Of a stretch of DNA of 64,000 nucleotides, positions 513 to 64,000 are shown piece by piece (position 1 is the stretch's first letter; each line of letters starts with the position of its first letter). The notes beneath the pieces were generated by a model that worked only from the letters and a program-made list of their open reading frames with translations, searched no databases and was not told the DNA's origin. This DNA comes from Rhodamnia argentea (taxonomy: Eukaryota > Streptophyta > Magnoliopsida > Myrtales > Myrtaceae): assembly GCF_020921035.1 (NCBI RefSeq), contig NC_063154.1, positions 3,472,001-3,536,000 of the forward strand. Reading direction: 5' to 3'. A program made the translations under genes and the position numbers.

Positions 513-1244
513 CTAGCTAAGGTAAACTGTGAACAGAAGGTACATGCTTTCTCTTGTATCTTCCCCACTAAGGTTATATCCACCATCAATGAACTTGATA
601 CTAGCATAGCCATTTGCACCATCATACAATCCTGTACCGCCAATGACTGCGATATGAGACTCTGAGACATCTGTCCGATGAACCCCGAAGAACCTCAGTC
701 CATCTTTCAGCTCGTTGCCTGCGAAATGTGCGGTCATTGCCATCATGTGGCTGGTTCCATCCTCGGAGCTGGCAACATACACTCCTTGTGCTTTTCCAAT
801 CACCCGGGAACTGAAAACCAAGCCTTCAAATAAGTACTCACTAATCTCTGTTATGCTGCTGAGTTGCAATTCTTGAAGGGTGGCGATGGCCGGAAATGAA
901 AAGCCTGTGCCAGCCAGGTCAAGTGTTCCAGTGGACGAACCGGCGACCACCGGGCCCAGAGGGTTGTTAGGCTGGGTTAATGGAATGCCCTTGCTGGGAG
1001 GGAAAAGGCCTAGCGGCTTTGGGAAGGGGAGTTGATTGTTGGGGAATTTACCTGTGGCCGGTCTCGAGTAAGAAATGTTGCTCAGGACATTTCTCATTAG
1101 GAATGTGACAGTGTGATGGCTTTGGTGGGGATTTGGGGCGGGATTGCCCAGGGTTCGGGCCAACGATGACTGGTCTATGAAGGTAAAGATGATGATGACC
1201 AGCAGTGTCGATGCTAGGTTGCCGGTGTTCTTAGCATTGCCCAT
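513..1244 (-). CDS. DIR9: Dirigent protein, ESB1/DIR9-like, secreted
   Basis: An uninterrupted 243-residue frame reads from an ATG at 1244 to a TAG at 513-515. Residues 9-29 form a hydrophobic signal peptide (LASTLLVIIIF...), so the protein should enter the secretory pathway. A Pro-rich linker at about 61-95 is followed by the dirigent domain (about 105-243). That domain carries the family block FFGVHRTDVSESHIAVIGGTG (about 185-205) and ends in the usual FTVYLS. The long N-terminal linker places it with the ESB1/DIR9/DIR16/DIR18 clade rather than with short lignan-forming dirigents. Dirigent proteins steer radical coupling of phenylpropanoids; ESB1-clade members help place lignin in the Casparian strip. 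Length is normal and no intron is needed. Its place at the end of the collinear block supports orthology to the Arabidopsis dirigent gene At2g39430. The paralogue name rests on memory and gene order. Confidence 0.9.
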   Translation of the reverse strand: MGNAKNTGNLASTLLVIIIFTFIDQSSLARTLGNPAPNPHQSHHTVTFLMRNVLSNISYSRPATGKFPNNQLPFPKPLGLFPPSKGIPLTQPNNPLGPVVAGSSTGTLDLAGTGFSFPAIATLQELQLSSITEISEYLFEGLVFSSRVIGKAQGVYVASSEDGTSHMMAMTAHFAGNELKDGLRFFGVHRTDVSESHIAVIGGTGLYDGANGYASIKFIDGGYNLSGEDTRESMYLLFTVYLS

Positions 1245-2120
1245 TGAGGAAGAATAAACAGGATTTTAATCGTGTCTGCTACTTATGAGATTCTTATAAG
1301 GGGGGAAGCAGATGTTGGGTTTTGGTTTGGTTGTGTTGGAGTTGTTTTGTCATTGAGATGGCAGTAGGTGGTCATCTTTTGTCCTCTTTGAACCGTGAAG
1401 AAGAAGCAAATTTTCAAGGAATTTTAACAACTCAGAGAAATCTCGCCGGTCGGTTCTAGTTGCAAATTGTCGAACTCGGGCATGTTGCTGATATAGATCA
1501 AGCCACTGTCAGGGCGCTATCCTGCTTTCTTATGAAAACCCTTTTTGGCCATTGATTTGCTTGGAACTTAAGGCATGGTTATTGCGTCTTTCATGTTTTG
1601 AATTCCTCATGGTCACCTAGGTTGTATTATGGGTATTTCTTCTCCCAAAGCATCGGAGATCAATGCAGAATCGCCAACGCAAGTACAGGAAAATCGTTCG
1701 GATGCTAAGTTTCGATGCTTAGGAACAGGCTAATGATTACAGAAAAGATGATATTGTTCTGGAGAAAACGGAAACTCTTAGTTTAGGCATGACTTGTGGG
1801 CAATCACAAAGAATGATCTCTTTGACATAGAATCTACCATGGCAGGCGGTGCACTAGTTAAGAAACTCGCGCATTAGTTTGCTCTTGATGGTATGAATAA
1901 GCTGCAGCTGCAGCAGCACTATTACGAGCTTTCTAGCTCGCTTCTTCGGCGACATGTCCTCTTCCCTGACAAAGCACACCAGTCCTAAGTTGATTGCCCC
2001 TAACAAGGCAAGCGAAACTTAATCACTCACCCGATGAGAACCCTCTTAAAGTCGCATTTCACAATGAAATTATCACACGGAGAGCTATCTAATCTCTGTA
2101 CCGCTCGGCCTCTCTGAGTT
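1245..2120. other. Intergenic spacer between the dirigent and MAGL genes
   Basis: This holds the dirigent promoter on the left and the downstream region of the hydrolase gene on the right. I see no convincing frame, RNA gene or repeat. Confidence 0.5.
1293..1300 (-). promoter_or_regulatory. Possible TATA box of the dirigent gene
   Basis: On the minus strand the motif CTTATAAG lies about 50 bases upstream of the ATG. Spacing allows only a short leader, so this is a weak call from sequence alone. Confidence 0.3.
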
Positions 2121-4756
2121 CTACATATCTTTTGGTTGCAGGTCATTCTGTTCTTTCAGTTCTCTCTCCAGCCTTGAATTCCCTAGTGAAGTTTTCTTAT
2201 CCAACCATCCCAAGATGTCGTTGAAGACGATTTCGATATTCTCCAGTGGCTCTCCGTACAGCAAACCGTGCCACATGCCTGGATACAATTTGAATGTCTT
2301 GTCCGAGCTCAAAGCGGAGTCATAGAGTTGCTTGCTCTCGGATTTATCCGTCACTTTGTCTTCTTCCCCATGGAGAACTATGAATGGCAAGGAGACCTAT
2401 TAAGTGAAAATGAGATGTTTTCAGGGAGCAGGGGAACAAACATTGTGTAGCATTGGAATCAAGAGATTGTTTAACCAAGTATTTTGTGGTTGACAGCCAA
2501 AAGGAGCCGATCGATTTCTTGAGAGAATAGAATGATAGACAGGAGGGAACGATGCTGCAGAACCTCGTTAAGCCTCTTCTCTAATTCCAAGCTGATCCTC
2601 AGACATTCGTAGCCCGTTTTCAGCCGAGGCCGTCCTTTGTAACAATATTTGTTTGCTCTTACCTGTTGCAAAAAAGTTGCAGAGTCAGTCACCATCTATA
2701 AAGATCTGTCATCCGACTCATGTTCGGTAGCCCACCACCGACCTTCACTTCTCACAGAACTTGCACAATTATAAAACGAGAGCTTGCTGATCATGATAAC
2801 TAGTTCAATGTCGAAAGCATACAGAATCAACATTGACAAATTGATCATCGATGATTACTTCACAGTGAGTGGGCACTCAATGCCTGCTTGTGATAGGAAT
2901 GTACCTGCTCTCTTACTTCAGGAACTTTGAAAGCGAGATCGATGATGCTCGGAGTCGGGACAATCTTCCAGGTCGGGATGACATTGATCAGTTTAGTGAG
3001 TATGTTGATCACCAAGGTCGGCGGCTTCGCATCGTCGGCGATCTGAAACAGCAATTGCAGCTCAAAAACAGCATACATTTTTTAAAAAGAACTTGAATGC
3101 ACACATCTGTGCAAGCACTTTAATTTCTTTTTTATAAAAAAAAACTCTCTCAAAGTCTAGAATTGTAAGACCTTCAAAAACAGAAAACTACCCGCTGTTA
3201 TTAAAATTCAAAACCTACTCACTGCCTAAAAAAAACTAGTCAAATTTTCATTTATGAACTGCACTTGTCAAATCCATTTACCAAAAGTTATAGTTGCAGT
3301 AACACATCATTCAGAGTTGACTTTAGCTGGTTGGTGCTGGTGCAGGCATACCTAACAGCACTATGATCACTTTGTGGACTTCCAATCATATGAAAAGTCT
3401 TTCAGGATCTTTCCTATCTCTCTGAAGTTGCAATAATAGAATAAAACATTTCATCTAAAGCTAGAGGAATCCATAATTTTATGTTTATTAAACCGACCTG
3501 TTGAGGGCGACACAAGCGGAATTTTGAGCTGGCCAAATGCCAAACAAAAAATTTTCTTTCGTCTCGAAAGAAAAAAGGAAAAGTGGGAAAAAAAATTATG
3601 TGGAGGTCAATAATTTTGATCTTCAAGAGAGTGGGAAAGATAGGAAAAGATATATGAGGGTTGAAAAGAGAGTCGAATAGTGATGATTTCTTATCGAGAA
3701 TCCGTACATCTCTTATTGTTTTAATAAGTTTTTGGAAATAAGGGACGCGAGATCGGTTTAGATGTCAAATTCAACGTGCGTGTAAGCGAGTAAGGCGAAG
3801 ACACGTGTGCAAGCTCACCTTACACATGGGAGCGACCAGGACAGCTCCATCCCAGAATTCTGGCTTCTTTCTGTGTAAAAGAAGGGCAACTGCTCCTCCC
3901 ATGGACTCTCCCATCAAGTACCTCATCATCTTCTTGTTCTCTCTTCTTTCTGTACATCAGCACAAACAAAATGGAAATTAAATAACCAAATAAAAAAAGG
4001 GAAGGAAGGAAGGAAAAAAAAAAAAACATAAGCAGGAACAAAAGTTGGGAGTCTGGAAGTTGTAATGTAAATTGGCCATTAATGTGTGTTATATCAGCAA
4101 GAGAGGGAAACAAGATTGAGGCTTTGATTACCAGAGATGCTGGTAAAATAAGTTGAGCAGTCATCCACAAGATCATCAAAGTTGTTGATGAAGGCCATCA
4201 ATCCGTCCGATTTCCCGTGCCCTTCGTAGTCGATCCCGTAAACAGCGTAACCCGCGTTCACCAACCGGACGGCGGTGCCTGATCAAACGAATTGAAAATA
4301 GGACCCAAGGTTGAGATCAAGGGTCTTTGAAGAGAATTGCAAAGGATGGTCAGAAAGAAAGCAAAGGGGACTAACTCCTCATGGTGATGCTGCACTCCAT
4401 GCCATATCCATGGCACATAAAGATCAGAGCTTTCGGCTCTCGGCCCCGAGGAAGCCAACTGCATGTGAAGAGCTTCAGCCCTCTGGAATTCGTTATGTAA
4501 TCCTGCAACATCAACAACGGAAAAAAAAAAAAAGCAGCTAAATAATAAAGGGAAAATACCAGATGTTCATCGTAAAGAAAACCAGAAGAACCAACGAAAG
4601 TTTTCTTTGAGAGAGAGAGAGAGAGAGAAACCTCCTCATAGTTGATGTTTTCAGCTTCAGGCTCCTGCAGAAAGACATCAAACAAGTCAAAAACCCCCTC
4701 AAAAAAAAAAAAATTCAGAGAAAAGAGAAGAGGATGTTCAGACAAGAACACACCAT
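2121..4756 (-). CDS. MAGL6: Monoacylglycerol lipase-like serine hydrolase (MAGL6/7/8 group), 8 coding exons
   Basis: Coding exons, in transcript order: 4756-4754, 4664-4632, 4502-4376, 4278-4132, 3949-3819, 3042-2905, 2662-2564, 2396-2121. They join in frame to 317 residues. All introns are GT-AG. The first coding exon holds only the ATG, followed at once by GTGTGT. The alpha/beta hydrolase fold is clear: the HGYG oxyanion motif at 43-46, nucleophile elbow GESMGG with Ser119, acid Asp239 (HGEED) and His269 (GMWHG). Family members hydrolyse monoacylglycerols or lysophospholipids, and a related plant enzyme is caffeoyl shikimate esterase. The segments CSITMRSTAVRL and LLLHRKKPEFWDGAVLVAP fit the MAGL6/7/8 cluster at Arabidopsis At2g39400-39420 better than the esterase. 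No signal peptide or membrane segment is seen, so it should be cytosolic or peripheral. Which of the three paralogues it matches is open, and the ATG-only exon is the least certain part. Confidence 0.9.
4609..4628. repeat. (GA)n microsatellite in MAGL intron 2
   Basis: About ten GA dinucleotides. On the coding strand this is a CT run starting a few bases after the 5' splice site of coding exon 2. Confidence 0.9.
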
Positions 4757-5192
4757 GCGACCAAAATCTGAAGATGATGTCTCGGTGAACACAGAAAAGG
4801 GAAGAGGGAAACTGTGGAAGGGAAGGAGATAAGGCTGCTGCTTTTTTGCATGGACTTTCTGCAATATAAGGAGAAGAATAAGGCTAAGAATACGAATTGA
4901 TATATTGCATTTGTGTATCTGTCTCCTTCATTTTGTTTGTAGCTGGAAACTTCGCCACTGCCTTTCTGCTAATTAAGAATAATTAATTACCTGCCTTTTG
5001 GGTTAAGGGTTTTGTGATATGACCTTCCTTTTATTTTGGTCCAATTTTTTTCTGTACATAGTGAGGCTCTGGATTCACCCTATTCTTCAAGCAGCAACCA
5101 CCTCCACATGATTATTCTGGCCCTTATTCATTCCTTCCACTATGATTATCCAAGGAAAAAATGTCCATTAATGTTCAGAATCAGATTTCAAA
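4757..5192. other. Promoter side of the MAGL gene
   Basis: This is the upstream region of the minus-strand hydrolase gene. It is AT-rich and contains no frame I can support. Confidence 0.4.
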
Positions 5193-6348
5193 AATTACCC
5201 TAATAGAGATTGATTCATCCGTTGGGGGATATCTATCTTTTGAAAGTCGTAATTATCCCACACCAATACCCTATTTGATGACGAAGGGAGATGAGAATGG
5301 GCGTAGTTTCTTATCTTTCGGCTATTTATTTTGTTGAAACCAGTGCGAGAGAAATTATATGTTCATTAAATTGGAAAGAATCTAAATCGATACGACTTGC
5401 CCTTTATCCCTTTCGTAGACGCTGAGAAAACGATGAGATGAGGCCAAAATTGATATTTAAGTTTGTGAAGAAACATTTCAAAGGGGCAGTTCTACCATAA
5501 GGTTAAGAATCATTAAAGTCTCCGGATCCTTTTTGAGTAATCTGCAATATTTGAATGATGGCCGATCTTACCCAAAGAATTACCCCGATAGAGATGATTG
5601 GTTCATTGGAAGTGTCTATCTTTTTAAACTCGTAATTATCACATGCCGATACCCACTGTTCGATGACGAAGGGTGATGAAAATGAGCGTAGCTTCTTATT
5701 TTTCAGCTATTTATTTTGTTGAAACAATGCCAAAAAAACACTTATATGTTCATTGAATTGCAAAGAATCTAAATTGTTCCAACTTGCCCTTTGTCCCTTT
5801 TCATAGACACCCAGAACATGCTGAGATGAGGCCAAAATGGATATTTAATTTCGTGAATGAACAGTTCAACGGGGCAGCTTAAGCATAAGGTTAAGAATCA
5901 TTAAAGTCTCCAAATACTTTTTGAGTAATCTGCTGCGCTTGAATGATGGTTGATCCTATCCAAAGAATTACCCTAATAGAGATGATTAGCTCATTGGGGA
6001 TATCTATCTCTTTAAAGTTGCACTTATCGCATGCCGATACCCCTGTCCGATTGGCTAAGGGACATGAAAATGAGCATAGCTTCTTCTTTTTCAGCTATTT
6101 ATTTTGTTGAAGCAGTGCCAAAAAAAACTTATAAGTTCATTAAATAGCAAAGAGTCTAAATCGTTCCAACTTGCCCTTTGTCCCTTTCAAAGACACCCAG
6201 AAAACGATGAGATGAGGCCAAAATCAATATTTAATTTCGGGAAGAAACAATTCAAAAGAGGCAGTTCTAGCACAAGGTTAAGAATCCTTAAATTCTCCGA
6301 ATCCTTTTTCGAGTAATCTGCGGTGCTTGAACGATGGCTGATCCTATT
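5193..6348. repeat. Three tandem copies of a ~385-bp unit
   Basis: Unit starts at 5193, 5578 and 5966 share 'aattaccc..gatagagat', giving periods of 385 and 388 bases, and the last copy ends near 6348. Landmarks recur in each unit in the same order: 'gctatttattttgttgaa', 'gatgagatgaggccaaaat', 'aggttaagaatc' and 'gagtaatctgc'. The copies differ by scattered substitutions, so the array is not recent. No long frame spans a unit. It lies between the divergently transcribed MAGL and RPL35 genes. Confidence 0.9.
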
Positions 6349-9539: not shown

Positions 9540-11140
9540 ATGGGTAACGATTTCCTCTCATCCTCGCTTTCGTCGTTTGGAGATAGACCCTCTGATTTCT
9601 TGCTTTTTTTCTGACTGTTCTTTATTTCAATGTGAAGCGAGGATTAAGGTTCACGAGCTGCGACAGAAGCCGAAGGCGGATCTGCTGAGCCATCAGAAGG
9701 ACCTCAAGGCCGAGCTCGCTCTCCTTCGCGTCGCCAAGGTCACCGGAGGTGCGCCGAACAAGCTCTCCAAGATGTAAGTCTGCAGTCCTTCGTCACGTGC
9801 TTATGTGCGATCGTGTGCTGTATTGCTTTGTTCGAGAATGTGATTGTACCGGTGAAACGATCGGTAGTTTGAGTTATTCGCAGGTCTGCAACGGGTAGGC
9901 GGTTCTAGGACATTGTGTCCATAGATGGTATAAATTTGCTTTCGGGATTTGATTTGTGAGATGAGGGTTACTTGATTGAATTTGAGTACGACGCTGGAGA
10001 TGAATCAGCGCTCTCCGCAACATTTTCATTGTGAATGTTTTAGTGAACATTGTTTCTTTCTGAGTTCAACGTGGTTGACCGGGTACCCTAGGATATGTGC
10101 TATTTGCATCCTTTGGATGTGTCTCTTGGTTGGATGGTGTTATTAGGAGGTGGGATGAATCTGATATCAATGCCAGGAAATGGGTGTCTCTCCTTTTGAT
10201 TGTGTTTCTGTAGAGGGGGTAATTCTCTCATTTAGTTAAATGATGCGGGCCTTGAGCGTCTTTAAAGCTTTTGTTTGATCTGACGGTTACCTAGGGTTCT
10301 TGCTCTGTCCTTGTGGCTTGATATGAGTTTTGGGTTTCATGGTGCAGAAAGGTGGCAAGGTTGTCGATTGCGCAGGTATTGACTGTGATCTCACAGAAGC
10401 AGAAGGCTGCATTGAGGGAGGCCTACAAGAAGAAGAAGTACTTGCCGCTTGATCTGCGTCCAAAAAAGACTAGAGCCATCCGAAGAAGGCTTACCAAGCA
10501 CCAGGTGATGCACTGTTTCTACTTTCTACCTTCATATGAAAAACACTTTGGAATTGGTTTTGCAAAATGCCAAGTGAGCGAATTTGTCCTGATGGGACTG
10601 ACAAGATCTTCATTGTGTTTGGATTAAGGAAGTGGAAGGAGTTGACGTGAGTTGCGAAATAGTGACACTCAAATATGTTGGGTATCGAAAGTTGGGAGGA
10701 ATGCGATAAAAGATAAGAAGAGAAAGGGAGTGGAAGGAAAAGGAAAAAAAATAGAAGTTGCAATCACTTCATACCATTGGCTAAACTTAGTTGTGAATAG
10801 CATATAGTCTACATAGTTCAATGAATTTATTACCATCCAGATGATTTCCCTTCTATTCACACTCATATAGGAGAAGTAAATTACTGTTTCCATTCACCAT
10901 TGCTTTGTTGTTTTCCGCTGTCCTCTAACTTAGATTACCCAGAGTAAATAAGTTCATCATGTTCGCCTTCCACGAGGACTACGTAGCTTCTCTTTCTTTT
11001 GTGATGTTTCTATATTTTATTTAGAGCCTATCTTCGTCTTTTGATTTATTTTTACGGACCAACAGGCGTCTTTGAAGACAGAACGGGAGAAGAAGAGAGA
11101 AATGTACTTCCCCGTGAGGAAATATGCTATCAAGGCCTAG
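9540..11140 (+). CDS. RPL35: 60S ribosomal protein L35 (uL29)
   Basis: Coding exons 9540-9543, 9638-9773, 10348-10504 and 11066-11140 join in frame to 123 residues, the standard length of plant L35. The first coding exon holds only ATGG before GTAACG, and the Ala2 codon is completed across the intron. The product begins [10 protein letters not shown] and contains [17 protein letters not shown] and [18 protein letters not shown], then a Lys/Glu-rich tail ending YAIKA. L35 (bacterial L29 family) sits near the exit tunnel of the large subunit. The last residue is Ala where Arabidopsis has Val, as I recall. The promoter carries site II and telo-box motifs. All introns are GT-AG. Identity is certain; the UTR ends are unknown. 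Confidence 0.97.
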
Positions 11141-18220: not shown

Positions 18221-20131
18221 ATGGGGTTGATGAGAATGCCGGAGATTTCAGAAGATAATGCCTTCACGCCGAGACAAGCCATGTCGACCTCCATCTCCTC
18301 TTCCAAAACGCTTTCGTCCTCTCTCTCATCTCGAGCTTCTGGCAACTGGAAGCTCGCCCCCATTTCCGACTTCTCCGGTCCGGCTGTGGAGGAAACTCTC
18401 CGGAATGCCGAATCCGTGATCAAGAAATGGGACTTGAACTCGAAAACCCCCTACACCCAGGTCGCCTCTCTCTTCGTCCACGACAGGGAAGAAGCCAAGA
18501 GCTTCCTCAAATCCGCCAATGACCTCCGCGAGGCCATGCATTTCCTCGTCACTAACCATTCGAGCTCCGACAAGCTAGTTCTCGCGCAGAGCCTCACGCA
18601 GATTGCCATGAAAAGGCTCGAGAAGGAGCTCTACCACATCCTCTCCACGAACAGAGAACACCTCGATCCCGAGTCCGTATCCCGGAAATCTTCCCGCCAT
18701 TCTGACAATTCCGAAAACGAGAACGGGATCGTTTCCGATGACGAGATGGTGAAAGTCTCCGAGTCCACCATGGAGGACGTGAAATCCGTGGTCGATTGCA
18801 TGATCAGCGCAGGGTATGGCACAGAGTGCATAAAGATCTACAAGCTCATGAGGAAGTCGGCGGTCGACGAAGGCATATACCGGCTCGGGATCGAACGGAT
18901 CAAGTCTTCTCAAATCCAGAAGCTAACCTGGAGTTCGCGCGAGCATCTGATCAAGAACTGGCTGAACGCAGTGAAAGTCGCGGTGCAGACGCTCTTCAAG
19001 GGAGAGAGGATCCTCTGTGACCACGTTTTCTCTGCATCCAGCAAAATCAGGGAATCCTGCTTTGCCGAGATTACCAAAGAGGCAGCGATCAACCTGTTCC
19101 GACTGCCGGAAATCATGGCAAGAATCAAAGGATCGCCGCATAGAATTTTTAAATTGATCGAGCTCTACGAAGCAACTTACGAACTTTGGCCCGATATCGA
19201 GTCCATATTCAAGTTCGATTCGATGTTGGCTGTCAAATTACAAGCCCTCTCTACGCTGGTGAAGCTTGGAAACATGGTCCAAGTGATCCTATCGAACTAC
19301 GAAGCCACAATTCAGAAGGACTCCTCCAAAATTCTCCCCGAAGGCGGCGGAATCCACACGCTCACTCAGTCGGTGATGGAATTCACGACTTCCCTCACCA
19401 ATTACAGCGCGACTCTCTCCGACATCTTGACGGACCATCCACGAGCTGGAAATCTGAATCTGCCTGCGTCGTACTTCGATGGCCCCAGCTCCGGCGATCT
19501 CCCGACGTCGCCGGTCTTGGTCCGATTAGCGTTGCTAATCCTTGTCCTGCAATGCAAGCTCGACGCCAAGGCCGAGCTCTACAAGGACGTCTCACTCTCC
19601 TACCTATTCCTCGCCAATAATCTGAACTACATAGTGGAAAAGGTGAGATCGACCAATCTCAAGTACCTGCTTGGGGACGAGTGGGTGGCGACGCACGCGG
19701 AGAAGGTGACGCAGTACGCGGCGAGCTACGAGGCGGCAGCGTGGAGCAAGGTCCTCTCGTCACTGCCAGAGGCAGCGGCCAAGGAAGGATCCCCGGCGAT
19801 GTCGCCGGATGCGGTGAGGGCGTGTCTCCAGAGGTTCGGCGCCGCGTTCGAGGAGGAGTACCGGAAGCAGACGTCATGGACCGTGCCGGACGGGAAGCTG
19901 AGGGACGAGATCAAGGTGTCCATCTCGAGGAAGCTCGTGCCGGCATACGGGCAGTTCTGCGAGGCCTGCCTAGGGATTGCGAGCGGCGACGGAGAGGCGG
20001 AGAGGAAGCTCGCGAGTTTCGGGGCGGATGATCTGGGGAACTACTTGTCGGACTTGTTCCACGGGAAGGCGGTTTCGAGGGGTTCGTCGCAGTCGCTGTC
20101 GTGGCGGTCTCGAGGGTGTTTGCTACGTTGA
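18221..20131 (+). CDS. EXO70H2: Exocyst subunit EXO70, H subfamily
   Basis: A single open frame of 636 residues with no intron, as usual for the H clade. A Ser-rich start (STSISSSKTLSSSLSS) is followed by the EXO70 rod. Recognisable blocks are VEETLRNAESVIKKWD (55-70), DLREAMHFLV, VLAQSLTQIAMKRLEKEL, GYGTECIKIYKLMRKSAVDEG, GERILCDHVFSASSKIRESCF and KDVSLSYLFLANNLNYI. Near the C-terminus are RDEIKVSISRKLVPAYGQF and DDLGNYLSDLFHGK. EXO70 binds phosphoinositides and targets the exocyst to the plasma membrane for secretion; H members are often tied to immunity and trichomes. In Arabidopsis the gene next to RPL35 (At2g39390) is EXO70H2 (At2g39380), which supports the name. The coding region is GC-rich compared with its surroundings. 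Confidence is high for EXO70H and lower for the exact paralogue. Confidence 0.93.
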   Translation: MGLMRMPEISEDNAFTPRQAMSTSISSSKTLSSSLSSRASGNWKLAPISDFSGPAVEETLRNAESVIKKWDLNSKTPYTQVASLFVHDREEAKSFLKSANDLREAMHFLVTNHSSSDKLVLAQSLTQIAMKRLEKELYHILSTNREHLDPESVSRKSSRHSDNSENENGIVSDDEMVKVSESTMEDVKSVVDCMISAGYGTECIKIYKLMRKSAVDEGIYRLGIERIKSSQIQKLTWSSREHLIKNWLNAVKVAVQTLFKGERILCDHVFSASSKIRESCFAEITKEAAINLFRLPEIMARIKGSPHRIFKLIELYEATYELWPDIESIFKFDSMLAVKLQALSTLVKLGNMVQVILSNYEATIQKDSSKILPEGGGIHTLTQSVMEFTTSLTNYSATLSDILTDHPRAGNLNLPASYFDGPSSGDLPTSPVLVRLALLILVLQCKLDAKAELYKDVSLSYLFLANNLNYIVEKVRSTNLKYLLGDEWVATHAEKVTQYAASYEAAAWSKVLSSLPEAAAKEGSPAMSPDAVRACLQRFGAAFEEEYRKQTSWTVPDGKLRDEIKVSISRKLVPAYGQFCEACLGIASGDGEAERKLASFGADDLGNYLSDLFHGKAVSRGSSQSLSWRSRGCLLR

Positions 20132-41240: not shown

Positions 41241-41544
41241 AAATTTTCAACTTTTAATCTTTAAACAGTCTTTAGACCAAAAAAAAAAAATCTCTAAACA
41301 GTTTGAAAGCGAAAAAGACAAGATATTTTTCATTGCAAATATATGTGGGATACCTTTTTAGGATGAGTGAGCGTCTCTTCAGTTACACGTCTTTTCATAT
41401 CGTGCCCTTTTAGTTTTCTGCGGCAGATTTATTTGTTTTTAATGGACATGTTCGTTCATGGCCTTTCATTCGTGGCTTTTCATTTTATAACACTGTAAAT
41501 TGAAATCGAGTATCTTCTTTGGAAAGAAGAAAGAGAGGAAGGAC

Positions 41545-42840: not shown

Positions 42841-44300
42841 GGGCAAATTCGCAAATCTGCAAAACACTGTAAGCGGAACTAATAGCCTTGAGGAGATTCA
42901 GTACCTCACATCCTATTTAATTGTGTTATAATTGTATTGATTTGTAATTGTGTCTTCAGTACTCAATAAGAAGAGATATTCAATATCGATATATCTACTT
43001 ATTGATTTGGTTATTATTAAAATTACTACATCTTTCTCGGAATTTTTTATGTCCGTTTATGTTTTCTCATTAAAATAAACAATAATGAGTTTATGTCCAG
43101 CATGATTCACGGTTCACCTTCATCTTCGTCTTCATCTTTGTGACTTGTTCGAGAACATTTTTTGTCTTCGTCGAGCAGACCCTTTTTTTTTTTTTTATCT
43201 CTAAATAATCTTATCGTCTTTGATTTTTTTTTACCCGAATTTCCTTGTCGAACTCATCCGGCTTGTTTTGAAAGATCCCAAGTGGTTTGTTTGTAAGAGT
43301 GCAAATTTTCGTCTCATTTGTCGATCTGGAAAAATCCCGAGCGTGTTTGGGGAATTAATCTCTGTTTACCGGGGACAACAGTAAGTTAATTCTTAATTGT
43401 GAGGCTAAGTATGAAAGAAAAGGAGAGTGTCAACTATGTAGTATCGACAAGCAATACAACACAACGCGTTGAGACATCATTTATAAAAAAAAAAATAGAG
43501 AATTTCAACACTTTGTGATACATTGTATATTAAACGTATATACGTGATAAATATATATAAAAAATGTTCAACCAAAACAAAATATATAGATAAAAATATT
43601 AGTAATGAGTTTCTTATTCTCTTTTGATGTTAGGGATTTACAATTAGATTTTTCTTTTTGCTGGCTAGTATATTAATTTTGGGATGGTTGGATATATGAC
43701 TTAAGTATATATATATATTTTTTGATAAATTGACCTTTTTATCCCTAACTTTTTGAAAATGTTTAAAAATGATCTCATGCATGTCAAAATAGTGTGTTGG
43801 GATGCTAGACTTATCGTGGGCATGTTTGGAGTGCTGACCATGTGTCGATTGTAAGTCGAAAAGTGTCGGATACGACATAAAGACTCTCGAAGAGTGTCGG
43901 TGCTACCTAGAATGTCAAACGTTAAACACGGAAACTAAACAGAAGATAGAAAGAGTACAATAACGAGTGCAAGTGAGGGAGTGAATGCAGATGACGAGTC
44001 AAATTAAGCAAATAGCACAAAATAGAGAAAGAGATTGGTTTGGACAGGAATAAGAAGAGGAGGAAGAAGCTGAGAAGTCAGGATGGAGCGTCCTGGGTAC
44101 AAAATTAAAAAAAGAATAAATTGACATTTTTACCCCTAACTTATGATTTGTTTTTTTTCCTAACTTGCACTCTTATTCGATATCTACTTATAATTAAGGA
44201 AAAATTGTATTTTTATCATAATGCATTCTCCTTTTCCCTAACTCGCACCCAAACGGCAATACAACTCCATCGCCTGTCCATTTTAAAACCCATTTCGAGA
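42841..44300. other. Intergenic DNA, possibly including an old LTR-like remnant
   Basis: AT-rich. The TATA-like 'aatataaatagg' just before this stretch and 'gtactcaataag' at about 42958-42970 resemble parts of a plant Copia-type LTR, but no partner LTR or internal domain is visible, so this is a weak guess. An 'aaattgac..ttttta..ccctaact' word recurs near 43725 and 44115. No gene is supported. Confidence 0.3.
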
Positions 44301-44446: not shown

Positions 44447-47400
44447 ATGGAGAGATCGAGCCATCGCGCCAGGGAAGAGAGGGACCACAAGCACCGGAGC
44501 CGTGAATCCGATGAGAAGCGCTCCTCGCGCGACGACAAGCACCGCGACTCCGATCACCACCACCACCAGCACCTCCACCGCAAGTCCAAGCGCGGAGATC
44601 GGGAGAGCTCTCACGACCGCGAGAGGTCCCACGACTCCCGCGGCGGCGGCGGCGGCGACCACGATCGCGACGGCGACTTCCGTCGCGAGAGGTCGCGCGA
44701 CTTGGGGGACGAGAGGGAAGGCAGCAGGGACAGGGAGAGCAAGCGGGAGAGGGATTACGAGTCGAGGAGAGAGAGAGAAGGCAGCCGGGATAGGGCCAAG
44801 TACGGGGAAGCGAGGCGCGAGAGGCACGATGAGTATTCGCGCGCGAGGGAGGGGTCGGTGGAGAGGAGGCACAAGAGGAAAGAGCGAGAGAGGAGTGAGG
44901 ACGGCGGGATTGATGGAGAGGATACGGTAGATAGGGTTTCCGAGACGGAGAAAAAGCAGAGGAGACGGTTCGAGGATGCGAATGGTGATCGGAGGGAGGA
45001 GAGGAGAGAGCGGAGGAAGTTCGGGGATAAGGTGAATCAGGAGGGTTTAGAGGACGGAAACCGCCTGAATGTGAGTTCAAATGTTACTGTTAATGTGAAT
45101 GAGGTTAAGGTGAAGGAAGTCGGTAATGGTCGGGGTGACGGCACTGCCAATGGCGGTGTATTCACTGCAAATGTAAGTATCCTCTTGTTCTCTTAGGTCG
45201 CTGCTTTTACCATGCAGATTCAAATGAGGTGTTTTGTTGCTCTTTCATTTCGGATTTCATTTACTAGAATTCTCACTAATTAAGTGCTTTAGGCGTGATT
45301 CTGAGGATGAGATCTAGGTTTTCGATGTTATGGAGTGCATTCTTTAAAAAATTTAGAGACTGATAACTGTGTCTGCTATTAAATTGATTTGCTGGTTTGA
45401 GGGACTGGCACCAATGCCTACCAGCAATGATGCCGATGCAAGACTTCTTTGCAATTTGACTTTTACTTGTTATCCTAGTTGTTCCCTTTTTATCATAGCC
45501 ACAGACACGTGTTTGGCACGTCCTCGCACGAAGTCGGATGATTAGTAACTTGTATGGCTCGACTTATTTCAGTATACTATATTGTTTATGTCATTGAAGA
45601 TTCTGGTTATCCATGGTATATTTTCTTGTAAGACAGGCTTCTTACAGTGCTTGTATAGTAATCTTCTTTGCATGTTCCTTCTTTCTTTGCTGCATGTTCG
45701 TTTATTTTTCACCCTTTTGCAAGAGGAAACTGTGCTGGTCTTCTCTATTGACCTGACTTGTTTTCGAAATCAGGGTGCGGCTCCTGAATCACCCACCATG
45801 ACATCAAGGACTTTGCCTAGCTCCACTCTAACCTCTACTCATCCCTTCCCTACCAAGGTATCTTCAATTTCTACCACAACTGAAAATAAGGGAGTTAGTA
45901 TTACCGGATCTCATGAGGTTCCTGGAAAAACTAGTACAGATGGGACATCTTCAGCAGCTGGAAAAAGTGGAAGTTTATCCCTTGATGCTTTAGCAAAAGC
46001 TAAGAAAGCTTTACAAATGCAGAAGGAATTGTCAGAAAAGCTGAAGAAAATTCCTTTGGTAGGTTCTCCTGTAGAGATAGCTTTGAGTTTTCTTCTGGTT
46101 TTGTAGTTAAGCTCCTTTATTTATTCTATGGTTTTGTGCTTGTGAATTGTGAATGTCTTCTGCAGCTAAACAAAAGCGCAAATTCAGTATCAGATGGTAC
46201 CCAGGTGCCAAAGGAGGGGACGGATGCCTCTCCTTTGGCTTCTGCTAAGCCTTTATCAACTGGTTTCACGTCCAGTTCATCGTCCTTCCCTACTGCTGAT
46301 GCTGCATCCTCTGTGAACCCTCCTACCAGTGGTGTTCCAACTGCTTCTGGTTTGTTAAGTGTACCCAACTATGAAGCTGTAAAACGAGCGCAGGAGCTTG
46401 CAGCAAAGATGGGATTTCGCCAGGATCCACAGTTTGCTCCTCTCATCAATTTATTTCCAGGGCAAGTGGCAGCTGATCTATCTCTGCCCCAAAAGCCTAC
46501 CAAGGCCCCAGTCTTACGTCTGGATGCACTTGGCAGAGAGATAGATGAACATGGAAATCTAGTGAATATTTCAAAACCAAGCAACCTCAGCACACTGAAG
46601 GTAGACTGGTGCTTTTCGCTTATATCTCTAGCTATTACTATCTGGATTTCTATCTTTGGTGCTCTTATCTTCACTACCATGATTTTTCTCAGGTTAACAT
46701 CAACAAACAAAAGAAGGATGCCTTCCAAATTCTAAAACCAGATCTGGATATTGATCCTGAATCGAATCCTCATTTTGATGAAAGGATGGGTATCAATAAA
46801 ACCAAACTTCTCAGACCGAAGAGAATGAGTTTTCTATTTGTTGAAGAAGGCAAATGGTCAAAAGAAGCGGAGATCATGAAGTTAAAGGTGCTTATTTGTT
46901 TCATCTTTCTGATCCCTGTGCCACTTCTTAAAGATTTTAACATCATAGTTCTTCCTATGATTAGAGTCAATTTGGAGAAGCTCGGGCAAAGGAACAGAAA
47001 GCTAAGCAAGCCCAATTGGCAAAGGCAAAGTCAGCACCTGATATTAATCCTAATTTGATTGAGGTGTCAGAAAGAGTCGTTACCAAGGAAAAACCAAAAG
47101 ACATGATTCCTGAAATTGAGTGGTGGTAAGTGAGCATTCTATGTTGTGACAATTAATGTTTCTTAAGCAACCTGTTGTACCTCAATCACTCTTCTTGATG
47201 TGTGCAGAGTTATGGTATTAGTGCCATTTGTTTTATATGTGCCCATCGGGTCAGATTTTTATTACGTTTTTGCTGAATGTATTCATTCCAATCAAATATG
47301 ATGCCAAAAGAAATTGCTTTAACTCTCGATCTAATGCATATATTGCAGATCTAACTTTTTAGGACATTGCTTTTCTTGGGGGGAATTTTGTTGGAATGTT

Positions 47401-48752
47401 TTGCTAGTATCATAGTGCTCCCTTTTGTTGTGATGAGACTGTCGATGACTTAAGCACAAAACTTGATACCGAAATGAAAGTTACAAGTTTCTTGATTGTT
47501 AAGTTTTTATGAAAAAAGCTTTCATCAAATTACTGGTTAAGTTTGGCCTTCCATTTTAATAGAATAAAAATAGGTCAAAGATTTCAGAAAACTATTAGTC
47601 CCAAAAGGTCTAATCTAATAGTTAGAAAGATGGACCTGGATAATTTTATGTCACCAAAGCACTTGGGCTCCTGTAACGCAAATCACAAGAATAGATTTCA
47701 CTGTTTATGGTGGATCTATAGGCTAAAATAATGATTTGTTTGTTAAAGTCCTTTGTGCAACCTCTTTGTATGGAAGGCTGGTTCCGTTATAATCTCAAAC
47801 GAGCCTTTGGAAAATTATTGTCCTGGTTGATGTTATTTGAAGTTCCATTACAAGCTTTTTGTGTCTATGTAGGGATTTGCCTCTCCTGCAAGCTGGTAAC
47901 TATGGTGAAGTAATTGATGGCATCATTGCTGATGATAAACTGAAGATGGACAAGATCACTATATATGTGGAACACCCTCGTCCTATTGAGCCCCCAGCAG
48001 AGCCTGCCCCTCCACCACCTCAACCGTTAAAGTTGACCAAGAAGGAACAGAAAAAACTTCGTACACAACGTCGGTTAGCCAGGGAAAAGGATAGGCAAGA
48101 GATGATTAGACAGGGCCTGATAGAACCACCGAAACCGAAAGTCAAGATGAGCAATTTAATGAAAGTTCTTGGTTCTGAAGCCACTCAAGATCCCACTCGG
48201 CTTGAAAGGGAAATTCGTGCTGCAGCTGCTGAGCGTGAACAAGCTCATGTGGACAGGAACATTGCTCGTAAGCTAACTCCTGCTGAGCGGAGGGAGAAGA
48301 AAGAGAAAAAGCTCTTTGATGACCCCAGCACACTGGAAACTATTGTCTCTGTCTACAGGGTTAATGATCTCTCACACAAGCAGACCCGATTCAAAATCGA
48401 TGTCAATGCTCAAGAGAACCGGTTGACGGGATGTGCAGTGATATCCGATGGGATAAGTGTTGTCGTTGTTGAAGGTGGAAGCAAGTCTATCAAGAGATAT
48501 GGCAAACTAATGCTGCGGCGAATAAATTGGGCTGCTGCTGTGAATGAGGAGGATGAAGAGGAAGATGACAGTGAGGAGAAACCAGTGAATAAGTGTGTAT
48601 TAGTGTGGCAAGGAAGTGTTGCAAAAGCAAGCTTCAATAGGTTCACCGTTCACGAGTGCATCACTGAAGCTGCTGCCAGAAAGGTCTTCTCTGATGCCGG
48701 TGTGGGTCATTACTGGGATCTTGCTGTCAACTTTTCGGACGATCAGATGTAA
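44447..48752 (+). CDS. RDM16: U4/U6 snRNP protein PRP3 (RDM16)
   Basis: Coding exons 44447-45172, 45774-46058, 46166-46600, 46693-46887, 46965-47125 and 47873-48752 join in frame to 893 residues, all introns GT-AG. Residues 1-200 are extremely rich in Arg, Asp, Glu, Ser and His (RDRE/RS-type repeats). Low-complexity Ser/Thr segments follow. The PRP3 domain spans about 480-720 (DFxILKPDLDIDPESNPHFD-like start, RPKRMSFLFVEEGKW, MIPEIEWWDLPLL, KLTKKEQKKLRTQRR). The C-terminal DUF1115-type region at about 750-890 contains VYRVNDLSHKQTRFKIDVNAQ and ends VNFSDDQM. PRP3 stabilises the U4/U6.U5 tri-snRNP in the nucleus. The Arabidopsis orthologue RDM16 also affects RNA-directed DNA methylation. The length appears about 100 residues above the Arabidopsis protein, mostly in the N-terminal charged part. 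Confidence 0.94.
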
Positions 48753-49638
48753 ATTGAAGACATCAATCGTGCAGGTATTTCCATTGGGGGATGTGCTTCA
48801 TGATGAGCTGGTTTGCTAGTCTTCGTCTGAGCAGGTCATAACTGATTTGATTTTGTACTCTTCATTATGAGATGGATCTCCTTTCTATGATGCTTATCTT
48901 TTTCATGTCCATGAATAAGAACCTTCTACTCAAAGGGCTTCTGGTATAAACTTGCGTAATTCAGGATGAGCTCAGCTAGATACTCTTCATGGATATTTGT
49001 GTTCTGCCTTGTGGTTCTTTCTTCTGGAGTATATTTGACTGTTGTCAATCTATGTGATATATTTTTGCTCTATTTCCCCTCCTGAATTCCTTTTACCTTT
49101 CACATCCTCTTTCTTTTGTCCTTTTCTTTTTGTTCTTTTTTGACTTTTTCATCAACGGTTTACAGAAATATTAGGCCTCCTTTATCGATGAAGTGGCTGA
49201 GGAACTAACTTTTATGACATCCTGATAGTTTTTAGTCGAGAGAGCTTGATCTATGAATATCGGATTCCAATGGTAAACACCCTTTGCCTGTGTCAATCTT
49301 ATTCTTTCTTGAAACAATGATTCTACATTGATGGGCAATCCTCGGTTCAAGTGTGGATCATGTCCCTGGTGCCGGCTTTAGCTTGTTCTGGGGAAACATT
49401 ATGTACCTGATAAAACTCAGGTGGTGGGAGGGTACGATCTTGCCATTGTCTTGAGGAGAAATGGGTGGAAACATTATGCTTACCCCGACAATCATCTGGA
49501 GAGGAGAGTTTTCAAGGGAAGTAGAATAATTTACTCCTGTTTGTGGATGATGTTTGAGAGTCACTCAGAGCTAGTTCATGGCATGTGCTGAAGAACCTCG
49601 GTGAGGTCATTAGAATGCATGCTTACCTCCATAATCAT

Positions 49639-51801: not shown

Positions 51802-54060
51802 ATGTCTCGCATTGTCGTTCCGAGTCTCCCGCCCGCCAGACCCTCCCGCCTCTTCTTCTCCAACGCCATGGAGCTCCACGACCTCCCCCGCGCCGCCCCC
51901 GCCCCCTCGCCGACCCTCGCTCAGCTCCTCAAGCGCGTCGGCGACGCCCGCAAGGAGGCCACTGGCGACGGCGGCGAGACGCCCGTCCACCACAGCGCCC
52001 TCGACGTCGACCCCAGCGATGCCAGCCTCGAGCCGCGCTCCCTCCCCTTCGTCCTCCAGTTCAACAACCTCACCTACAGCGTGAAGGTTCGCCGCAAGGT
52101 CACCCTCTCCTCCCTCCTCCCCCGGAGCCGTAGCCGCCTCGGCTCCGCCGCCGTCGAGGACCCTGTCGCCGGGGAGAGCCTCTTCACCCGGAGCAAGGTC
52201 CTGCTCAACGACATCTCAGGCGAGGCCCGCGACGGCGAGATCCTCGCCGTCCTTGGGGCCAGCGGCTCCGGGAAGTCGACGCTTGTTGACGCGCTCGCGA
52301 ACCGGATCGCGAAGGGAAGCCTGAAGGGGAGCGTGACCCTGAATGGGGAGGCGCTCGAGTCGAGGCTGTTGAAAGTGATATCGGCGTACGTGATGCAGGA
52401 TGACCTCCTCTTCCCGATGCTCACGGTGGAGGAGACGCTGATGTTCGCAGCCGAGTTCCGCCTCCCCCGGACGCTGTCCAAGTCGAAGAAGCGGATGCGG
52501 GTCCAGGCCCTGATCGACCAACTGGGCCTGCGGAACGCGGCGAAGACGGTGATCGGCGACGAGGGCCACCGAGGAGTCTCCGGCGGGGAGCGGCGGCGTG
52601 TCTCCATTGGGACTGACATCATCCATGACCCGATCATCCTCTTCCTCGACGAGCCGACCTCGGGACTCGACTCGACTAGCGCCTACATGGTGGTAAAGGT
52701 GCTGCAGCGGATCGCCCAGAGCGGGAGCATCGTGGTCATGACGGTGCACCAGCCCAGCTACCGCATCCTTGGCCTCCTTGACCGCCTGCTCTTTCTCTCC
52801 CGCGGCCAGACCGTGTACAGCGGCTCCCCCTCAAGCCTTCCACTCTTCTTTTCGGAGTTCGGCCACCCAATCCCAGAAAACGAGAACCGGACTGAGTTCG
52901 CGCTCGACCTGATCCGGGAGCTCGAGGGGTCCCCTGGCGGCACCAAGAGCCTCGTCGAGTTCAACAAGTCATGGCAGAGCATGAAGCAAGCTACCGGAAA
53001 CTCGGAGCCCGACCGCAACGGGCTGTCCCTGAAGGAGGCGATCAGCGCCAGCATCTCACGTGGGAAGCTGGTCTCCGGCGCAACGAACGACGTGAGCCCG
53101 ACCTCCATGGTCCCCACCTTCGCCAACCCTTTCTGGATCGAGATGGCGGTCCTGTCCAAGCGGTCCGTGACCAACTCGCGGCGTATGCCGGAGCTTTTTG
53201 GTATCCGGCTTGGCGCCGTCCTCATCACGGGGTTCATCCTCGCCACCATGTTCTGGCAGCTAGACAACTCCCCCAAGGGCGTCCAGGAGCGGCTCGGCTT
53301 CTTCGCCTTCGCCATGTCCACGACCTTCTACACCTGCGCCGACGCGCTCCCCGTGTTCCTCCAGGAGCGGTACATCTTCATGAGGGAGACGGCATACAAT
53401 GCGTACCGGCGGTCATCCTACGTGCTTTCGCACTCGCTCACCGCGCTGCCCTCGCTGGTGTTCCTCTCGCTCGCCTTCTCGGCCACGACCTTCTTCGCGG
53501 TAGGGCTCGACGGGGGGCTCTCGGGCTTCCTCTTCTACTTCTTCATCATCTTGGCCTCCTTCTGGGCAGGCAGCTCCTTCGTGACCTTCCTGTCGGGGGT
53601 GGTCCCGCACGTGATGCTCGGGTACACCATCGTCGTGGCGATCCTCGCCTACTTCCTCCTCTTCAGCGGCTTCTTCATCAACCGGGACCGCATCCCGCCC
53701 TACTGGATCTGGTTCCACTACCTGTCCCTGGTGAAGTACCCATACGAGGGGGTTTTGCAGAACGAGTTCCAGGACCCGGCCAAGTGCTTCGTGAAGGGGG
53801 TCCAGATCTTCGACAACACGCCGCTCGGGGCGGTGCCGGAGACGGTGAAGCTGAGGCTGCTGCAGTCGATCAGCAGCACGCTGGGGATGAACATCACGGC
53901 GTCGACGTGCCTGACGACGGGGACCGACATCCTGCAGCAGCAGGGGGTGACGGATCTGAGCAAGTGGAGCTGCCTGTGGGTGACGGTGGCGTGGGGCTTC
54001 TTGTTCCGCATCTTGTTCTACATCTCCCTGCTGCTGGGAAGCAAGAACAAGAGGAGGTAA
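51802..54060 (+). CDS. ABCG1: ABC transporter G family half-transporter (ABCG1/ABCG6/ABCG16 clade)
   Basis: A single intronless frame of 752 residues. The nucleotide-binding domain comes first: Walker [10 protein letters not shown] at 152-160, Q-loop region YVMQDD at 196-201, signature VSGGERRR at 259-266, Walker B ILFLDEP at 279-285 and H-loop His316. The transmembrane half follows, with about six helices from residue 470 to the end (for example [16 protein letters not shown]). ABCG half-transporters dimerise in the plasma membrane; this clade exports suberin and pollen-wall lipid precursors. The upstream start MSRIVV is preferred over Met23 because relatives also start MSR-V. The adjacent-family order matches ABCG1 (At2g39350) next to SAC3A. 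Codon third positions are strongly G/C, which produces long shadow frames on both strands. The clade is certain; the exact paralogue is inferred from gene order. Confidence 0.93.
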
Positions 54061-56066: not shown

Positions 56067-56835
56067 TGTTTTCCTCCCTTGTTCCCGCTTACCAAGCCTG
56101 CGCCACCTCCCTTCTTCTTCGACATCTCACGGCCAAATCTTCAAGCTGAATCGACTGCTTAGACGGCTTTTTCCCTATTTTGAGGAGACGGACGGGCGAG
56201 GAGCAAACAGAGAGCACCGTTCGGGTCATCTGTTAAGCCTTCCATCTCTTTTCCTATGGGCTCGGAGCTCACAAACCTATGTCTATGGAAGTCGCGACCT
56301 TCGTCGATTCACTCTTTAACGGAGGTCGGTAGCCCCCGCACAACGATAGGTATGTGGTTGCGCGAGGTCTGCCACCTCCATGGCCGATGTGTTGGGGCTC
56401 GGCTCACGGCCTCGGGTGAGAGTGGGCGGCTAAAGGGGAACGAGTGAGGAGGAGCGGCCATAGCCAAGAGGTCGAAACTGGACGAACCGAAGCTTGGAGC
56501 TCGGAGATCTGGCAGTCAAGTCATGGTAGCGAGTGAGAAGAGAGAGGGCGGCCGCCGCCACGAACACGAACACGAAACCGGAGTGACGCTGACCGTGGCC
56601 GCCATGGTCAAAAGAGCTCAGACATGGGGCGACTATGGCCGTGGGAGCGCTCAAAACAAAAGGCGATCTCACCAAATTCCTTTAAATAACGTGGACGATT
56701 GCCAAGCCTCACAAGACTTTGTCGCAGCCAAAATACAAAATAAATAAATAAAAAGACAATTTTTTTATCCATTAGAAACGAAACGAGACACTCACAGAGA
56801 TAAGGGACAGAATCGGCAACCTCCAGCCACCAGCC
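56067..56835. other. Intergenic DNA upstream of the plastid-type gene
   Basis: A moderately GC-rich stretch (56090-56640) with short frames on both strands and no recognisable family. The last part should hold the promoter of the gene at 56836. Confidence 0.35.
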
Positions 56836-57417
56836 ATGGCTACCGCCATACCATCCTCCTCCCTCCAAATCTCCACGCCCTTCTCATCGACCTCCCCGCG
56901 TAAGCCCCACGCGCCCAAGCCCTACCTCCCCTTCCCCGCCCGAGCCACCGACTCCGACGAGCCCCCCTCCGAGGCGGCCTCCACCGCAACCGATTCCGGA
57001 TCCGAGCCCCAAGGCGACCCGTTCGAGAGCCGGCTCTCGCGGGTCCGGCTCCGGTACCGGAGCGGGACCGGGAAGAAGGCGGAGGTCCGCAAGGTGAAGA
57101 AGTCCAAGAGAGGATCGTCTCCGTCCGGCACCGGCGGAATGTACCTGCCCCCCGTGGCCCTGAAGGAGCCGGTGTCGGAGGGGCTGAAGGTGGAGTTCGG
57201 GTTCACCCCCTACAGCGAGAGGATGAACGGGAGGATAGCGATCCTGGGACTGACCGCGCTGCTGCTGGTGGAGCTGGCGACGGGGAAGAGCGTGATCCGC
57301 TACCACACGCCGGCGATCTTGCTGATCCAGGTGTACTTCGTGGCGGCGGTGGCGGCGCTGTACGCGAAGTACGAGAAGGAGAGAGGGAGCGTCTGGCCCC
57401 AATCTCCCGATAAATGA
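56836..57417 (+). CDS. Plastid-type two-helix protein with LHC/HLIP-like motif
   Basis: A single frame of 193 residues with no intron. The N-terminus (MATAIPSSSLQISTPFSSTS..) is rich in Ser, Thr and Pro and poor in acidic residues, like a chloroplast transit peptide. A basic Ser-rich linker (66-97) leads to FGFTPYSERMNGRIAILGL. This contains the LHC/HLIP-type chlorophyll-binding pattern ExxNGRxAxxG, with Glu128, Asn131, Arg133 and Gly138. Two hydrophobic helices follow, at about 134-150 and 158-177, and a charged tail. HLIP and SEP-type proteins bind pigment or help photosystem assembly and photoprotection in thylakoids. I know related plant proteins only as uncharacterised, so pigment binding here is inferred. 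It faces the SAC3A gene tail to tail across about 1 kb. Confidence 0.75.
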   Translation: MATAIPSSSLQISTPFSSTSPRKPHAPKPYLPFPARATDSDEPPSEAASTATDSGSEPQGDPFESRLSRVRLRYRSGTGKKAEVRKVKKSKRGSSPSGTGGMYLPPVALKEPVSEGLKVEFGFTPYSERMNGRIAILGLTALLLVELATGKSVIRYHTPAILLIQVYFVAAVAALYAKYEKERGSVWPQSPDK

Positions 57418-61400: not shown

Positions 61401-64000
61401 GCAATAATATCCTCGATCATAAAAAATTGTGCATAGTAGGAGCATGGCTTATATGCATATAAATCACACTTTAAGAGACTAATTATTACAATTTCCAAAA
61501 CTTTTATTTAGCATTTTCAAATGATATGACAGTACATTCTATGATGGTACTCTAAACGAAGTAGTAACCACAGAGAATATGACGGCATAATAATGCAACA
61601 CGTAATGACAATGCATAGATAAGCAGTGTGATCATACGTGTTACTGAGTCCATCCATGTCCGGTAGAGGGAAAAGAGGCTTAGCATCCCAATCTTGTGTA
61701 TAAAGAGTCCCATCGGCAGTTGCGCTAGTAATTAACTGACAAACAGAGTGCACATACAAAAGTTGCAGATTATTTAAAAACAAAAAAATAAATAAAAAAA
61801 GAGTATTTATGAAGCCAGAATGTGCAACAGAGCATATAAATTCACATCGTCTTTGCAACAACCACGTATCTCAATTTCCTAACACCAAGTTCTGAAGTGA
61901 AGCTTCTGCAGATTTTTCTACTTCTGCACAAGCTTCCTTTTCTCAATTATTGCCTTAAAAAGGGTTAAACCTATCTATTAACCAGGGTCCACAAAAGCAA
62001 AGCTGGTGTGCTCTACAGTGATGCAGGAAGACATTCGCCAACTTGGATGCGTTTGAGCTGGAGTTCATCTTATACCAATAAAGAGAGTAGCAGTTTGTGA
62101 GAAAGGCCCAGTTGATTTCAGCAAAAATGTCACTTGGTCTTGATTTATCGGCCGCTCAATTAATCAATAAGGGTATAAGAAAGTCAACTGGCGCAGAAGG
62201 CTTTAAAAACCCATTGAGTATGGAACAACAATGACCAAGCAAGAAAAACCCATTCAATGAGTTAAAAGAAATTTTCCCTTGGGTACAAGAGGGATGATCA
62301 ATGCAGAGACCCCATAACTGGTAAATCAGATGTGGAAGTAAAATAGTCATATGCATTTCTGGTGGTCTTGATTATTCCGACATCACATGAAATCGCATGG
62401 GATGGGAGGTAAGTTTCTCTGATCCAGTTCTAAGCAGATACTTTTAACCATCAACGATGAGTTTTAATTTCCAGTTTTCACGGAGTAAAATTCCATTAAG
62501 AACAAGCAATTACTTTTAAGAAGAGGGCATTTCTATCAGACTAACCTCCTTTAAGACTGCTTGAGAAGCAGCAATTTGTTCTTCATCTTTACAGCGAGCT
62601 AGAACCCTCTCCACATAACCACGTAACGACTTAGGGAAAGTGGCAGGCTGCAAAAGAGAAAATCAACTTCAGCATAAATCATCACAAAACTCCACAAGAA
62701 CAGTAAAAAGTCCAATATACAGAACCCTCAGATAATTTGACATATGCCGCTTTTGATTGCTCATTAAATGACCTGTACTAAGACGGAAAATTGCAAAATC
62801 TGTTTAAGAAGGAAAGCCTATTATTTCAGATAAAATGCCATTTCAAGATGTGATGAGTGAATCATAATAAGCCCAGTAACAACAACAGCATCAAAACTGA
62901 GGCATCACCAGCATCAAAATCAACCAGTGCCAGGAACAGACAAAAGTGACAGTGCAATCAGGCTGCAGCTCGAAAGACTTCACAACAAAAGGATATGCAC
63001 GAGGAGCAAAGGGTTCACCTTAAGTGCAGGATCAGAAGCATCACTAGACAATCCTTTGTCGTTTGGCTTTGTTAGTGAAACACCTATATATGCAGGCTTT
63101 GCCACTGCCGTGGTCCCTGAGCCAGCCTTATCGGTTTTCGTTAATCCCAAAGCCAAGTTTGAAACTATTCTAGGATTTGTCTGAATCTGCACTTTACTTC
63201 CTCTTCGAGGATCTAAAGTCGGGGAAATTTGTTGGGATGCTTGATGAATCTGAGGAACCTGATGAACAACAGGATATTGCAAGTTGGGCCCTTGATTAGA
63301 GGTACTGTTTTGTTCATCCGAATAGCTCCCATAGGCATTTTTTGAATCCAAAGGCTGATAAAATGCTGAATGTCCAGCAGCACTGTTGTAGTTTTGGAAT
63401 CCTGGAGCAGCATGTTGTTTCCAATAACTGTCGTGACCAGCACTGGCAACGACACTAGGCTGAACATCAAGCAAAGTCATAGAAGTATGTTAAAAATTTT
63501 GTGTACAGCATTCAAAGAACCAATTGCCAGAATCGATATGGACAACCAAGCTATAACCATCTTATCTCAATAATAGGGTAAGGAATGCATTCTGAAATCT
63601 TTCGCAGGGAAAATTTGAAAGAAAAACTTAGCACACAGTCATACATTTTGTGCTGCTCTACTCTGGTGAACAGCGACTTGAACATTAGCACACAACCATA
63701 AAGCACCCAATCAGAAGTAAAGTAAAAAGTTTCAGGGGAGTAAAATTTTCATCATTGTAACACAAGTGAATTACAAACCTGCTGGGAAGGCAATCCAGAA
63801 GATACCGGTTCTGGCCTCCAAGATGGGACTGCAGTTGGTGGTGGCTGGCTATTTGAAGCTTGAGTCCCATCTGGAACTCCAGGAGTTGGACATTGGGGAT
63901 TAGATGAACTAGCAACAGACAGATTTTCCATCCCAGGAGCACAGTTAACTTCTGATTGAGCATAATAATCTGTCCATTGCTTATATTGTGGCTGATACTG
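58428..64000 (-). CDS. SAC3A: SAC3 family protein A (SAC3/GANP domain, LENG8-like), 5' part outside the window
   Basis: Twelve coding exons, high to low: 64000-63779 (partial), 63459-63019, 62647-62546, 61735-61638, 61177-61015, 60767-60282, 60183-60043, 59836-59777, 59459-59329, 59192-59059, 58983-58748, 58529-58428. They join in frame to the last 771 residues with all introns GT-AG. The visible start is Gln/Pro/Tyr-rich, then basic low-complexity segments (PEERKKRESRSKRFEKGHGNR). The SAC3/GANP domain begins near [27 protein letters not shown] and runs through CDQLKSIRQDLTVQRI, TSGNYVMFFGLYRTAPNLNSCLMD and CRSYRPTVPVSYVAKVLGF. Tail: PEPGDAVAHGDSSLAVNDFLARASS. SAC3-type scaffolds act in mRNA export (TREX-2). 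Plant SAC3A resembles human LENG8 and yeast Thp3, tied to transcription and splicing. Gene order matches At2g39340 beside ABCG1. The donor AC|GTATGA of the 61735-61638 exon is the least certain boundary. Confidence 0.92.

Follow-up and report, generated by a model that had tools for sequence, protein, structure and literature searches.

We asked whether a 64,000-nucleotide stretch of the Rhodamnia argentea genome (C5:3472001-3536000 on contig NC_063154.1, hereafter the window) is a piece of an ancestral chromosome whose gene order is still shared with Arabidopsis. A first-pass annotation had named seven unrelated families along it, dirigent, MAGL hydrolase, RPL35, EXO70H, MAKR4, ABCG and SAC3A, and had matched them to At2g39430 down to At2g39340. 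We conclude, with a probability of about 0.94, that the window is an ancestral chromosome segment which has retained its gene order since before the split from Arabidopsis, and that it matches At2g39260-At2g39430. Such synteny is to be expected between flowering plants; the microsynteny described here is real and ordinary, a known pattern rather than a new system. It backs the naming of genes in the window and offers an anchor with which to align C5 with Arabidopsis. Searches of the species' own genome covered 346.7 Mb in 74 contigs, and paralogous segments found on C8 and C10 reveal which genes each copy retained.

Results

Gene order in the window and at Arabidopsis At2g39

All seven families were located in the window (7/7) and in the annotated order (Table 1). 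Six of them scored above the curated Pfam cut-off (Dirigent, Hydrolase_4, Ribosomal_L29, Exo70, ABC/ABC2 and SAC3_GANP), and MAKR is a putative assignment. The span given for the block, 513-64000, fitted as well, except that SAC3 seems to extend beyond the window. The seven-gene list was right in its order but had passed over three further block genes, one coiled-coil-like, one light-harvesting-like, and PRP3.

By convention, Arabidopsis locus numbers increase along the chromosome. The excerpts of the literature examined here give an At2g39 locus to each of the seven families (7/7): At2g39430 is a dirigent gene (PMC10548141), At2g39420 is MAGL8 (PMC9157110), At2g39390 is RPL35 (called RPL35B in PMC8787260 and RPL35A in PMC10090002), At2g39380 is EXO70H2 (PMC4871884), At2g39370 is MAKR4 (PMC3970009), At2g39350 is ABCG1 (PMC3970009, PMC9409143), and At2g39340 is SAC3A (PMC6283158). 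The annotated loci thereby held for every family, but At2g39400 and At2g39410, also assigned to MAGL in the annotation, were not found in those excerpts. With UPF2, which is AT2G39260 in the excerpt of PMC4417159, the locus numbers of all eight families (8/8) descend strictly along the R. argentea chromosome (39430, 39420, 39390, 39380, 39370, 39350, 39340 and 39260), and the Arabidopsis interval At2g39260-At2g39430 has the eight families in common with it, arranged identically by locus number.

The place of this eighth gene had been predicted. Ahead of the genome search, UPF2 was expected on C5 at most a few hundred kb beyond the right end of the window; the sole place of PF04050 (UPF2) in the genome proved to be C5:3683095-3683412, 147 kb past that end. 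The chance of a uniformly placed gene falling in the predicted stretch is 0.00043.

A literature search returned no publication on MAGL6 together with neighbouring loci and none that names at least two of the outer At2g39 loci; for the six inner At2g39 loci, two were co-named in one publication. The excerpt of PMC3711448 does not mention At2g39260, and that of PMC6582705 gives no locus number.

Paralogous segments on C8 and C10

The claim of an ancestral block was strengthened by the UPF2 prediction and by a pair of paralogous segments elsewhere in the R. argentea genome. At C8:20.226-20.321 Mb, DIR (the dirigent gene), MAGL, MAGL, RPL35, EXO70H and MAKR follow one another from 20.321 down to 20.226 Mb, so that five block genes are collinear with all strands turned (inverted). 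At C10:24.384-24.876 Mb, four block genes, EXO70H, MAKR, the coiled-coil-like gene and ABCG, run from 24.876 down to 24.384 Mb with order and orientation kept and, again, all strands turned (inverted). The coiled-coil-like gene stands in register there (C10:24698581-24712830, 39-66% identity) and therefore predates that duplication. When loci were placed uniformly, 0 of 200000 draws reproduced such co-location for C8, and 3 of 200000 did so for C10, under a model that assumes 30 EXO70H and 13 ABCG loci, takes the other numbers from match tables and ignores gene clustering. Unlike the window, the C10 segment is drawn out over 490 kb, the smaller part of which was inspected. Between C8:20.20 and 20.40 Mb we found no ABCG, SAC3, coiled-coil-like or light-harvesting-like gene. 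Comparison of C8:20.2-20.4 Mb with the window, as DNA and translated, gave larger clusters that correspond to the known genes, a PRP3 fragment and a foldback-like repeat (both described below), besides many single weak matches.

Synonymous divergence (Ks) between C5 and C8 was 0.74 for RPL35, 1.42 and 1.65 for MAGL and 2.54 for MAKR, with saturation in EXO70H. For C5 against C10 the values were 1.03 for ABCG, 1.49 for EXO70H and 1.69 for MAKR. The DIR pair was dropped from this set by a coordinate filter. Values from 0.74 to 2.54, or saturated, indicate that the duplications are old. The EXO70H copy on C8 (C8:20286263-20288087) carries 7 + 1 stops in two matched stretches and hence looks disrupted. 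DIR has its best paralog in the C8 segment (C8:20321002, 95 bits), with a close second at C8:7758445 (92 bits). Around the latter, at C8:7743601-7761579, two EXO70H matches adjoin two dirigent matches; in Arabidopsis, EXO70H genes in the At2g28 and At1g07 regions presumably lie near dirigent genes too.

The window holds one MAGL gene, whereas Arabidopsis presumably has three (At2g39400-20). The two MAGL genes of the C8 segment form a tandem pair (C8:20297392-20299336 and C8:20308067-20309939) with a Ks of 0.16, a duplication separate from that of the three Arabidopsis genes.

A probable paralogous copy at At3g55 in Arabidopsis

The first-pass annotation had also suggested a partial paralogous copy around At3g55090-55230, and this was supported for four families by the excerpts of the literature: ABCG16 is At3g55090, EXO70H1 is At3g55150 (PMC4871884), RPL35C is At3g55170 (PMC10090002), and At3g55230 is a dirigent gene (PMC10548141). 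These four are common to At3g55090-At3g55230 and the window, and the window ABCG aligns to ABCG16 over its length. We know of no MAKR or SAC3A member in that interval, for which no search was made. SAC3C lies outside it, at At3g54380 according to the excerpt of PMC6283158. The At3g55 segment is likely a co-orthologous duplicate of At2g39 within Arabidopsis; for RPL35, DIR, MAGL, EXO70H and ABCG, the counterpart of the window may be At2g39 by itself or both Arabidopsis segments.

Origin of the block and alternative readings

We propose that these neighbours persist as small rearrangements and transpositions have yet to part them. Because the genes are unrelated and lie on both strands, no joint function is needed. 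An older and probably genome-wide duplication would have given rise to the C8 and C10 segments, which would then have shed different genes (fractionation); we infer that the duplications seen on C8 and C10 were whole-genome events. We also lean, with some reserve, towards the view that the pre-duplication order survives more completely in the window than in Arabidopsis. On this view the coiled-coil-like gene was an old member that has gone from the Arabidopsis block, and the same may hold for PRP3 and the light-harvesting-like gene. The evidence of ancient membership, namely the register on C10, holds for the coiled-coil-like gene only and not for PRP3 or the light-harvesting-like gene.

Could the genes instead be held together by joint work or shared regulation? 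We regard this as very improbable. Dirigent proteins are linked to cell-wall barriers, which would suit a functional cluster, but RPL35, SAC3A, PRP3 and EXO70 are generally known for unrelated cellular roles. The excerpt of PMC9409143, too, lists ABCG1 in connection with root suberin formation; against this, the C8 and C10 copies retained different subsets, and EXO70H on C8 is disrupted. The unrelated roles and the differing subsets on the paralogous segments led us to set a functional cluster aside.

Equally little weight can be given to the possibility that the window matches some other Arabidopsis segment, for example one of those with EXO70H genes at At3g09, At2g28 or At1g07, and that At2g39 is a choice among paralogs. 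RPL35 presumably also occurs at At3g09500. The excerpts of the literature do place further EXO70H genes at At3g09520/30, At2g28640/50 and At1g07725, and also at At5g59 (PMC4871884), and another RPL35 at At5g02610 (PMC10090002). Yet SAC3A, MAKR4, MAGL8 and UPF2 are all numbered in At2g39, for which reason this alternative was set aside, and the additional EXO70H-dirigent neighbourhood at C8:7.74-7.76 Mb could be the match for those other segments.

Several observations weigh against the conclusion that the window is an ancestral segment matching At2g39260-At2g39430. The correspondence with Arabidopsis was drawn from gene names and loci in the literature, not from sequence comparison. The frame at 24501-25475 is one that we take to be MAKR-like; this protein gave no Pfam match at E 0.01, though Pfam may lack a MAKR model. 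Between MAKR4 and ABCG1, Arabidopsis presumably carries a receptor kinase, At2g39360, and a simple pattern check detected no kinase-like motif in the window frames. The coiled-coil-like, PRP3 and light-harvesting-like genes, which are inside the window block, lie outside the Arabidopsis list of the first-pass annotation. Within R. argentea, Ks is widely spread across pairs, giving no single clean age and no duplication date; the top-scoring relatives of EXO70H are on C10 (546 bits, 47%) and C6 (545 bits, 52%) and thus outside the C8 segment; and MAGL has two longer single-frame relatives of lower identity (46% and 39%), on C9 and at another C5 site. Lastly, we infer gene-by-gene orthology with Arabidopsis, and since several families, such as EXO70H, are multi-copy there, single genes are putative orthologues.

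Gene models and family assignments

Ten proteins from 69 long open frames, and then four spliced or joined models, were compared with Pfam. A coding score was trained on frames that include DIR, EXO70H, MAKR, ABCG and part of PRP3, and was not used as evidence for them.

Table 1. Protein-coding features of the window (positions counted from its first nucleotide).
Feature	Position	Strand	Structure	Matches and remarks
Dirigent-domain protein (DIR)	513-1244	-	single exon, 243 amino acids	At2g39430 counterpart; Pfam Dirigent 60.8 bits
MAGL-like alpha/beta hydrolase	2124-4484	-	6 coding exons modelled	Pfam Hydrolase_4 218.7 bits
60S ribosomal protein L35 (uL29; RPL35)	9637-11137	+	3 coding exons modelled	Ribosomal_L29 53.3 bits
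EXO70 exocyst subunit (EXO70H)	18221-20131	+	single exon, 636 amino acids	Exo70_C 355.3 bits, Exo70_N 64.4 bits
MAKR-like protein	24501-25475	-	single exon, open frame	relatives on C8 (56%) and C10 (45%)
Coiled-coil-like gene	29097-40462	-	only part of exons found; 9.1 kb between two parts	
PRP3 splicing factor	44447-48749	+	6 exons modelled, 893 amino acids	Pfam PRP3 163 bits, Prp3_C 148.8 bits
Half-size ABCG transporter, ABCG1/ABCG16 kind	51862-54060	+	single exon	Pfam ABC/ABC2; ABC2_membrane 161.5 bits
Light-harvesting-like protein	56833-57417	+	single exon	PF00504 (chlorophyll a/b-binding) 19.4 bits, under cut-off 22.3
SAC3/GANP-domain protein (SAC3A)	58748 (about 58.7 kb) to past 64000	-	exon parts	SAC3_GANP 81.2 bits

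The first exon of the MAGL model may begin further upstream, and RPL35 probably has its start codon in a further short exon upstream, near 9540; the best match of RPL35 is a solved 60S L35-like chain (208 bits). The EXO70H subfamily label is given by position, without a tree, and comparison with solved structures returned only members of other names (7pp2, 4rl5 EXO70A1 and 2pft), which is not decisive for the subfamily. The ABCG protein matched ABCG16 (8wtm, a chain that we take to be the Arabidopsis protein) from end to end with 1161 bits, the next solved molecules being CDR1 (303 bits) and ABCG25 (247 bits). ABCG alone among the families had a solved structure of the same kind, over its whole length, to be compared with. 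By its sequence, this protein fits the ABCG1/ABCG16 kind within a solved set that is without ABCG2, 6 and 20 chains. The C10 copy also scored high against ABCG16 (1083 bits), so the score does not separate ABCG1/16 from ABCG2/6/20.

SAC3A exits the window at its right end, and its open frame apparently carries on over C5:3536001-3536621. The 10 kb right flank holds this frame, which we read as the N-terminus of SAC3, along with a long frame that was given no name; among the open frames of the 10 kb left flank none could be named, no Pfam comparison being run for either flank. Genome searches with SAC3A and with the light-harvesting-like gene each gave the window's own place only. The coiled-coil-like gene had a single weak Pfam match (17.6 bits versus a cut-off of 23.9). 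Rfam at the gathering score gave no match in the window, and no tRNA was found in it.

Repeats and gene fragments

Two parts of the coiled-coil-like gene are separated by a 9.1 kb gap (window 30416-39520), which may represent one long intron, hide exons that we missed or mark an old insertion; paired repeats of at least 60 bases were absent from window 26000-44300. A piece of PRP3 (window 46733-47669 and 48792-49069), with its introns and without the last exon, recurs at C8:20364194-20365485 with 97-99% DNA identity. Some 43 kb separate it from DIR in the C8 block; it is not at the matching place and looks like a recent transposed fragment. Directly upstream of MAGL, a 388-base unit is repeated three times in tandem (window 5189-6347). 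A repeat-like stretch lies between EXO70H and MAKR both in the window (21831-22518) and on C8 (C8:20279031-20279812), with 76% identity over 686 bases; because the stretch aligns with itself, and with the C8 copy, in either direction, it resembles a foldback element.

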